A stretch of 64,000 nt of DNA from Mya arenaria. Taxonomy: Eukaryota > Mollusca > Bivalvia > Myida > Myidae. The stretch spans positions 2,497,001 to 2,561,000 of the forward strand of contig NC_069135.1 in NCBI RefSeq assembly GCF_026914265.1, in the 5' to 3' direction. The number at the start of each line of letters is the position of its first letter. Within the stretch, counting starts at the first letter, position 1. A program made the position numbers and the translations under genes. A model generated the notes under the pieces. The model was not told where the DNA came from. It made no database searches and was given only the letters and a program-made list of their open reading frames with translations. Of this stretch, positions 54,588-58,124 are shown in pieces.

Positions 54588-57500
54588 ATACAGCCAGGCC
54601 TGTACATACCCATACACCTACCCATACAGGCAAGCCTGCATATACCCATACAGCCAAGCCTGTACATACCCATACAGCCAAGCATGTACATACCCATACA
54701 GCCAAGCCTGTACATACCCATACAGCCAAGCCTGTACATACCCATACAGCCAAGCCTGTACATACCCATACAGCCAAGCCTGTACATACCCATACAGCCA
54801 AGCCTGTACATACCCATACAGCCAGGCCTGCACATACCCATACAGCCAAGCCTGTACATACCCATACAGCCAAGCCTGTACATACCCATACAGCCAAGCC
54901 TGTACATACCCATACAGCCAAGCCTGTACATACCCATACAGCCAAGCCTGTACATACCCATACAGCCAAGCCTGCACATACCCATACAGCCAAGCCTGTA
55001 CATACCCATACAGCCAACCCTGTACATACCCATACAGCCAGGCCTGCACATACCCATACAGCCAACCCTGTACATACCCATACAGCCAGGCCTGCACATA
55101 CCCATACAGCCAACCCTGTACATACCCATACAGCCAAGCCTGTACATACCCATACAGCCAACCCTGTACATACCCATACAGCCAAGCCTGCACATACCCA
55201 TACAGCCAACCCTGTACATACCCATACAGCCAAGCCTGTACATACCCATACAGCCAAGCCTGTACATACCCATACAGCCAAGCCTGTACATACCCATACA
55301 GCCAAGCCTGCACATACCCATACAGCCAAGCCTGTACATACCCATACAGCCAACCCTGTACATACCCATACAGCCAGGCCTGCACATACCCATACAGCCA
55401 ACCCTGTACATACCCATACAGCCAAGCCTGTACATACCCATACAGCCAACCCTGTACATACCCATACAGCCAAGCCTGTACATACCCATACAGCCAACCC
55501 TGCACATACCCATACAACCAGGCCTGTACATACCCATACAGCCAAGCATGCACATACCCTTACAGCCAAGCCTGTACATACCCATACAACCAGGCCTGTA
55601 CATACCCATACAACCAGGCCTGTACATACCCATACAACCAGGCCTGCACATACCCATACAACCAGGCCTGTACATACCCATACAGCCAGGCCTGCACATA
55701 CCCATACAGCCAGGCCTGTACATACCCATACAGCCAAGCATGCACATACCCATACAACCAGGCCTGTACATACCCATACAGCCAGGCCTGCACATACCCA
55801 TACAACCAGGCCTGTACATACCCATACAACCAGGCCCGCACATACCCATACAGCCAGGCCTGTACATACCCATACAACCAGGCCCGCACATACCCATACA
55901 GCCAGGCCTGTACATACCCATACAGCCAAGCCTGTACATACCCATACAGCCAAGCCTGCACATACCCATACAGCCAGGCCTGTACATACCCATACAGCCA
56001 AGCCTGTACACACCCATACAGCCAGGCCTGTACATACCCATACAGCCAAGCCTGTACACACCCATATAGCCAGGCCTGTACATACCAATACAGCCAAGCC
56101 TGTACATACCCATTCAACCAAGCCTGCACATACCCGTATAGCCAGGCCTGTACATACCCATATAGCCAGGCCTGTACATACCCATATAGCCAGGCCTGTA
56201 CATACCCATATAGCCAGGCCTGTACATACCAATACAGCCAAGCCTGTACATACCCATACAGCCAAGCCTGTACATACCCATACAGCCAAGCATGCACATA
56301 CCCATACAGCCAAGCCTGTACATACCCATACAGCCAAGCATGCACATACCCATACAGCCAAGCCTGTACATACCCATACAGCCAAGCATGCACATACCCA
56401 TACAGCCAAGCCTGTACATACCCATACAGCCAAGCATGCACATACCCATACAGCCAAGCATGCACATACCCATACAGCCAAGCCTGTACATACCCATACA
56501 GCCAGGCCTGTACATACCCATACAGCCAGGCCTGTACATACCCATACAACCAGGCCTGTACATACCCATACAGCCAGGCCTGTACATACCCATACAGCCA
56601 GGCCTGTACATACCCATACAGCCAAGCATGTACATACCCATACAGCCAAGCATGTACATACCCATACAGCCAAGCATGTACATACCCATACAGCCAAGCC
56701 TGTACATACCCATACAGCCAAGCCTGTACATACCCATACAGCCAGGCCTGTACATACCCATACAGCCAAGCCTGTACATACCCATACAGCCAGGCCTGTA
56801 CATACCCATACAGCCAGGCCTGTACATACCCATACAGCCAGGCCTGTACATACCCATACAACCAGGCCTGTACATACCCATACAGCCAAGCCTGTACATA
56901 CCCATACAGCCAGGCCTGTACATACCCATACAGCCAGGCCTGTACATACCCATACAGCCAAGCCTGTACATACCCATACAACCAGGCCTGTACATACCCA
57001 TACAGCCAAGCCTGCACATACCCATACAGCCAGGCCTGTACATACCCATACAGCCAAGCCTGCACATACCCATACAGCCAGGCCTGCACATACCCATACA
57101 GCCAAGCCTGTACATACCCATACAGCCAGGCCTGCACATACCCATACAGCCAAGCATGTACACACCCGTACAGCCAGGCCTGCACATACCCATACAGCCA
57201 AGCCTGTACACACCCGTACAGCCAAGCCTGTACATACCCATACAGCCAAGCCTGTACACACCCGTACAGCCAAGCCTGTACATACCCATACAGCCAAGCC
57301 TGTACACACCCATACAGCCAAGCCTGTACATACCCATACAGCCAAGCCTGTACATACCCATATAGCCAGGCCTGTACATACCAATACAGCCAAGCCTGTA
57401 CATACCCATTCAACCAAGCCTGCACATACCCGTATAGCCAGGCCTGTACATACCCATATAGCCAGGCCTGTACATACCCATATAGCCAGGCCTGTACATA

Positions 57501-58124
57501 CCCATATAGCCAGGCCTGTACATACCAATACAGCCAAGCCTGTACATACCCATATAGCCAGGCCTGTACATACCAATACAGCCAAGCCTGTACATACCCA
57601 TACAGCCAAGCCTGCACATACCCATACAGCCAAGCCTGTACATACCCATACAGCCAAGCCTGTACATACCCATACAGCCAAGCCTGTACATACCCATACA
57701 GCCAAGCCTGTACATACCCATACAGCCAAGCCTGCACATACCCATTCAGCCAAGCATGCACATACCCTTACAGCCAAGCCTGTACATACCCATACAACCA
57801 GGCCTGTACATACCCATACAGCCAAGCCTGTACATACCCATACAGCCAAGCATGCACATACCCATACAGCCAAGCATGCACATACCCATACAGCCAAGCA
57901 TGCACATACCCATACAGCCAAGCCTGTACATACCCATACAGCCAAGCCTGCACATACCCATTCAGCCAACCTGCACCTACCCATACAGCCAAGCCTGCAC
58001 ACACCCATACAGCCAATCTGTACACACCTATACAGCCAAGCCTGTACATACCCATACAGCCAAGCCATTTAATACCCATACAGCCAAACTATTACATATC
58101 CATACAGCCAACCTGTACATACCC
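54588..58124. repeat. 24-bp minisatellite, array B, reaching the RPAP3 exon 7 donor
   Basis: About 147 units. The unit (minus strand GTATGTACAGGCTTGGCTGT, ATGG) repeats up to and including the splice donor of the exon ending at 58123, whose donor context GGGTATGTACAGG is the unit sequence itself. The units next to the exon are the most diverged (57960-58124). Huge frames on both strands (up to 1,203 codons) are artefacts of a 24-bp unit open in six frames. Confidence 0.95.

Follow-up and report, generated by a model that had tools for sequence, protein, structure and literature searches.

In Mya arenaria, the last intron of the RPAP3 gene opens with a 24-bp minisatellite that begins at the exon-intron boundary (offset -2) and repeats the splice signal in its units. 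We consider it likely that this array is a minisatellite of the kind described as a "mirage," which came from a tandemly duplicated exon-intron junction and grew within the intron. According to this proposal, a tandem duplication, with short direct repeats as its probable end points, would first have copied a short stretch across the RPAP3 junction, and slippage or unequal exchange would then have raised the number of copies to about 148. Such a duplication would be tolerated, as the exon is still delimited by the first donor and any extra copy is intronic; the exon-proximal donor is presumably the one used, which would leave the mRNA unchanged, with the added donors all lying inside the intron. 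The array was found in a window of 64,000 nucleotides (C14:2497001-2561000) within a surveyed block of 213 kb (C14:2417001-2630000), and the features discussed here are listed in Table 1.

Table 1. Features in and around the RPAP3 intron and at other splice junctions. Positions are those of the window unless another sequence is named; ^ marks a splice junction.
Feature	Position	Strand	Evidence or content
RPAP3 penultimate coding exon	58123..58217	-	RPAP3_C profile 68-92; 6ez4/6fo1 RPAP3 alignment; acceptor CTGCAG^GG, donor CAGG^GTATGT
RPAP3 exon-proximal splice donor AGG^GTATGT	58117..58125, GT at 58122-58121	-	sequence; weight-matrix score 7.5
24-bp minisatellite, 148 units, consensus GGGTATGTACAGGCTTGGCTGTAT on transcribed strand	54588..58124	-	TRF and unit walk
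Terminal partial copy AGTATGTAT; array end ..TTAGTATGTATAAACCC	54578..54586	-	sequence at 3' edge of RPAP3 array
Last RPAP3 coding exon, copy B, VQEIFAHLRGRGEHTDTDITALAAKYDVR-stop	52077..52168	-	tblastn, sequence read-out
Copy A of tandem duplication	41391..49268		matches within 49269-54573
Second 24-bp array, without upstream exon	46571..49064	-	TRF; 106 units by walk (46569-49064)
Three-unit remnant of second array	45294..45366	-	TRF; RT-match stretch between remnant and rest
Second last RPAP3 coding exon, copy A, open	44197..44288	-	sequence match to 52077..52168
38-bp array in USP gene, 83 units	2781..5893	+	unit = 13 nt of exon end and 25 nt of intron start, CAGTGGTACAGCT^GTAAGTATG..
USP paralogue, same exon end and donor in single copy, no array	19135..19260	+	sequence comparison
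WAS array	-38474	+	donor TGG^GTGAGT, 2 exon nt; PF00568 E 3.7e-5; 9s9x WAS E 1.5e-5
RPAP3_C/TPR gene array	C1:46017766-46018035	-	48 exon nt; RPAP3_C E 3.1e-4, 21.6 bits (below 23-bit cut-off)
ABCA array	L026:6719-7198	-	exon ..DPASYG^GTACGT, 24 exon nt in array; ABCA4 E 7.6e-7
Second array in same ABCA gene			TRF edge 92 nt past donor; exon ..LLFLVYG^GTATGT, ABCA7 E 0.0095
Gene without homology support	77640	+	exon ..SPDG^GTAAG, unit GTCACCAGACCAG^GTGAGG; TRF edge 107 nt past donor
Probable acceptor case, 42-bp array, 141 copies	90667-96598 (L035:7667 to L036:3598)	+	unit and exon start given in the text

The RPAP3 array was delimited by Tandem Repeats Finder (TRF) at 54619-58124 (period 24, 146.2 copies, 92% matches), and a unit-by-unit walk from 58124 to 54588, about 3.5 kb, counted 148 units, 147 of which have GT at the donor position. 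The exon ends with AAACAGG^GTATGTACAGG, and the first unit begins at the first G of GGGTATGT, such that two nucleotides of the exon (GG) fall inside the array. The original prediction, that the edge of the array coincides exactly with the RPAP3 donor and that about 147 units present the donor sequence, was thus confirmed on both points. The exact 9-mer TGGGTATGT occurs in 124 of the 148 units, and a unit standing at the donor as a single copy would read GTATGTACAGGC(T/C)TGGCTGTAT. The unit walk also revealed that the edges of the array diverge more than its centre. The partial copy beyond the far edge (54578..54586) may be what is left of the direct repeat at which the first RPAP3 duplication took place.

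The exon that precedes the array is, from its sequence, predicted to be coding and to form the end of the RPAP3_C domain. It reaches 21.7-22.9 bits against the RPAP3_C profile, for which the cut-off is 23, and its frame also matches human RPAP3 (6ez4, E 0.19). The adjoining RPAP3 exons match positions 23-60 and 2-33 of the same profile, and a TPR exon lies further upstream; alignments of the exons to human RPAP3 chains have E-values of 0.0054 to 1.4, which are weak owing to the shortness of the exons. The last exon was located by tblastn with a human peptide and a made-up variant of it, of which the variant gave the match. At the junction 58123/52168 the phase is ..KEKQ-G^AG-VQEIF.., with G^AG as an in-phase codon, which fits the human RPAP3 C-terminus. 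Since the downstream exon joins in phase, the array occupies the 5' portion of the final RPAP3 intron (58122-52169), where it had been placed from the outset. The frame of the exon is open to about 58030, which would agree with a terminal exon that reads into the array to a stop after about 3.5 units, with no intron at all; given the conserved RPAP3 C-terminus downstream, with its acceptor and matching phase, we attach almost no credence to this reading.

The amount of exon sequence inside the array differs among the loci, being 2 nt in RPAP3, 2 in WAS, 13 in the universal stress protein (USP) gene, 24 in the ABCA gene and 48 in a further gene with RPAP3_C and TPR matches (the RPAP3_C/TPR gene). 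In the USP gene, whose donor is GCT^GTAAGT, 72 of the 83 units have GT at the donor position. Three tandem USP paralogues end their exon 1 alike, with ..CATTCCAC(A/C)CAGTGGTACAGCT^GTAAGTAT, and two of the three are free of the array. As the exon part of the USP unit is shared coding sequence, the array arose from the junction rather than the junction from the array, and comparison of the paralogues indicates that the single-copy junction of the two array-free genes is the ancestral state. The family was assigned by PF00582 in the third exon of the gene and of two paralogous copies (E 3e-16 to 3e-17); exon 1 has no Pfam match, its protein identity among the paralogues is 72-81%, and a NET1 match to it (E 0.76) was rejected as chance. 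The three USP genes, at window positions -5502, 2697 and 19135, differ greatly in intron sizes; in the middle one (2697), arrays appear to lie in both intron 1 and intron 2.

The array of the RPAP3_C/TPR gene comprises 4.9 copies of a 55-bp unit that are 98% alike, the unit being the final 48 nt of the exon and 7 nt of the intron. The six nucleotides CATACT stand at the start of the unit, within the exon, and again in the intron past the last copy. This is the signature that duplication between short direct repeats leaves, and it supports such an event in this gene. By analogy, the RPAP3 array may have followed the path of birth at a junction that is seen in the USP and RPAP3_C/TPR genes, although with just two exon nucleotides in the unit a junction origin stays unproven at both RPAP3 and WAS. 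These two loci would fit an array that arose within the intron and then extended, or was cut back, up to an exon protected by selection, the match to the donor being merely where it stopped, and the greater divergence of the RPAP3 array edges points the same way. However, this would leave unexplained the 13, 24 and 48 exon nucleotides within the USP, ABCA (L026:6719-7198) and RPAP3_C/TPR arrays, and also that the RPAP3 unit itself contains the donor motif; we regard such an intronic origin as unlikely.

The sequences on either side of the 31 TRF rows of the 213-kb block were read by eye, as were those of arrays in 100 kb fetched for other reasons; the ABCA locus was chosen because its array resembles the RPAP3 unit. 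In these sequences a TRF edge falls at an exon donor in the USP, RPAP3, WAS, RPAP3_C/TPR and ABCA genes, the exon being supported each time by homology or conservation. Thus, the geometry first noted for USP and RPAP3 does recur in unrelated sequences, and the proposed origin of arrays from duplicated splice junctions holds for some loci, best in the USP and RPAP3_C/TPR genes. The units measure 23, 24, 26, 38, 46, 55 and 96 bp; these lengths are not bound to 3, which fits intronic growth. In the WAS array, GT occupies the donor position of 28 of 30 units. At window -37784 to -37477, in the WAS intron, the GGGTGAGT array is followed by inverted units and then by direct units again. The second ABCA array and the array of the gene at window position 77640 join their donors only via diverged first copies, judged by eye (in the latter gene, at 12 to 19 edits in 46 nt).

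A strict rule of 5' splice sites, in contrast, was not supported, as one array probably ends at an acceptor and another starts 20 nt downstream of a TPR-exon donor, with the donor outside the array. The R-loop-linked break repair that had been suggested as a mechanism likewise gained no support here. At the probable acceptor (90667-96598) the unit reads GTAG^GACTACGTAATG and the exon start GTAG^GACTCCGTAAAATG; the exon has no Pfam match, a gelsolin-repeat exon lies 5 kb downstream, and the gene is possibly gelsolin-like. One edge of the L020 array adjoins a possible exon of 46 nt that lacks homology. For a 31-bp array at 26556-31179 (about 149 copies), which has the donor-like start TACGTGAGTG, no adjoining exon was found. 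No junction relation was noticed for the remaining arrays read by eye, among which exons without homology might escape.

Splice donors were scored with a weight matrix. The later RPAP3 donors have a median of 6.0, and 8 of 146 reach the 7.5 of the first, which outscores most of them because its -3 base is A, from the exon, and theirs is T, from the unit. Donors that equal or exceed the score of the first make up 43 of 71 later ones in USP, 15 of 27 in WAS and 57 of 63 in the gene at 77640. As later donors are often as strong, position and not strength would have to decide donor choice. How the spliceosome chooses one donor among more than 100 near-identical ones is a question that these arrays open to testing.

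Minisatellite-like tandem duplications of exon-intron boundaries, termed mirages, have been described in amphioxus Adh3, the globins BflGb6 and BflGb9, and PGBD5; they occur at both 5' and 3' splice sites, keep the splice signals in many units and have edges that are excluded from homogenisation (PMC3087553, PMC3902484). The same reports give 3 and 6 units of 150-160 bp in two haplotypes of BflGb6 and units of 10-72 bp in Adh3, and undisturbed splicing is backed there by Adh3 data and globin RT-PCR (PMC3087553, PMC3902484). The arrays described here likewise lie at exon-intron boundaries and repeat the splice signals in their units, and the RPAP3 array is probably a boundary-spanning minisatellite of this known kind in kilobase form. 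Unlike the 3 and 6 units of BflGb6, arrays here reach 148 units of 24 bp and extend over kilobases. A further difference from the amphioxus cases is that array-free paralogues are available here as an ancestral state; regular splicing is here predicted from genomic sequence. The original report of mirages, in amphioxus Adh, is said to be that of Canestro in 2002.

Internal tandem repeats in human genes have also been found at exon-intron boundaries and in recently duplicated genes (De Grassi and Ciccarelli, 2009; PMC2812944). They resemble the present arrays as minisatellites at such boundaries but are short (about 4 units of 30 bp on average) and alter coding sequence or create introns. Our own limited literature search met no report of a boundary-spanning minisatellite in a bivalve. 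Repeated splice donors and a tie between introns and tandem arrays reportedly have precedents, judging by their titles: a 1995 paper on a minisatellite with multiple splice donor sites, in the IFI6 gene, and a 2007 paper by Zhuo on human introns from tandem arrays. What is notable in Mya arenaria, to which boundary-spanning minisatellites are hereby extended, is the kilobase length together with a series of stages, from array-free (the USP paralogues) through young (5 copies, 98% alike) to old (148 units). Junction arrays may be a source of new introns and of variable gene length, and whether junctions are mutational hot spots or places where duplications survive can now be put to the test.

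Arrays are abundant here: the 31 TRF rows, with up to about 148 units per array, cover 45,536 bp, or 21% of the 213-kb block, and adjacency to a donor might arise by chance in so minisatellite-rich a genome. We compared the number of strict TRF edges within a 56-nt interval of a donor, an interval chosen after the cases were known, with that expected for assumed numbers of donors. In the block, where the count takes in both window cases (USP and RPAP3) that prompted the finding, three of 31 arrays (USP, RPAP3, WAS) lie at donors, with P values of 0.002, 0.0083, 0.05 and 0.13 for 30, 50, 100 and 150 donors; 0.41 coincidences would be expected at 50 assumed donors and 1.2 at 150, where the excess is not significant. 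A second set of 23 arrays combined 17 arrays, into which 20 TRF rows from beyond the window had been merged, with 6 from C1/C7, and left out L020-L026, which had been picked for similarity to the RPAP3 unit; it has two such arrays (WAS and RPAP3_C/TPR; P of 0.015, 0.037, 0.12 and 0.23 for the same donor numbers). Inclusion of the diverged case at 77640 gives 4/31 (P 0.00012 to 0.036; 0.00083 at 50 assumed donors) and 3/23 (P 0.00087 to 0.064; 0.0037 at 50). Chance adjacency would sit well with the higher donor numbers and with the lack of a clear genome-wide enrichment of the donor motif in tandem pairs, yet it is hard to reconcile with the lower ones (30-50 donors), post hoc as the interval is, and does not account for the exon sequence inside units, so that as an explanation of the RPAP3 array we find it very improbable.

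Genome-wide, motifs were counted over 1.216 Gb in 18 contigs with the two strands summed, and these counts are of matches, not arrays, and are dominated by a few long arrays. Triplets of GGTRAGT number 10556, vs 9512 for the motif read backwards, and pairs of AGGTRAGT 4508 vs 3476. Short-period pairs of MAGGTRAGT number 2729, the highest of eight motifs (seven controls: 1798, 1855, 1363, 743, 1702, 1545 and 1692). Single counts are 35245 for MAGGTRAGT and 46808 for its reverse order, and 21455 for GTAGMATRG and 26165 for its reverse order. The paired share of MAGGTRAGT, 2729/35245 or 7.7%, falls within the range of the three controls (of seven) for which shares were derived (3.8% for its backwards form, 8.6% for GTAGMATRG, 5.2% for GTAGMATRG backwards), such that there is no clear excess of the donor motif, and the anticipated genome-wide enrichment of arrays at donors did not clearly emerge from this motif proxy. 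On this reading of the motif counts, arrays born at donors are a minority of the minisatellites of this genome. Donors as hot spots are therefore suggested by the local coincidence under some assumptions, with the global motif test giving no clear excess. A bolder proposal holds that 5' splice sites are preferred birthplaces of minisatellites, where junctions become duplicated through some process linked to transcription or splicing, selection permits this since one donor, the first, is enough, and arrays then lengthen to kilobases; we think this rather doubtful, and if true, introns built of repeated donors would be expected in many genes. In the 213-kb block there are 18 GGTRAGT triplets and 0 of the mirror motif, and 11 of the 18 belong to the array at 119906-120356. 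That array carries a strong donor-like motif, TCGGTGAGT, on the minus strand; no exon donor was noticed there, and the gene nearby appears to run on the plus strand.

The RPAP3 array and the last exon have second copies in a tandem duplication (41391-54573) with a spacing of 7.9 kb, in which 41391-44603 matches 49269-52482 at 98.35% identity over 3217 bp and 44600-45293 matches 53873-54573 at 94.3% over 701 bp. Within the second array, the stretch at 45366-46571 has a reverse-transcriptase match (RVT_1, PF00078, E 6.2e-13, in 45804-46448) and is open over 45801-46448. This match, and an array start that lies exactly in the donor motif, would be expected if a mobile element or an extrachromosomal circle carrying the array had inserted at the donor by matching GGGTATGT. 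However, the reverse-transcriptase stretch interrupts the array of copy A and does not carry it; among the at least 61 matches scored, identities of at least 86% occur only in the C14 stretch, the others being 67-75%, and no dispersed copies with shared flanks or ends were found among them. An insertion of this kind is thus highly improbable, and birth at the junction remains the reading that we prefer. As copy A has its own array, a remnant and an open last exon, the sequence suggests that the RPAP3 array is probably older than the 7.9-kb duplication. Both duplicates hold arrays, and their difference in length, 148 vs 106 units in one assembly, is suggestive of array instability. The acceptors of the two last-exon copies read TTCACAG^AG and TTCACAG^TG, and since both exons are open and have acceptors, the tandem duplicate may provide RPAP3 with alternative last exons.
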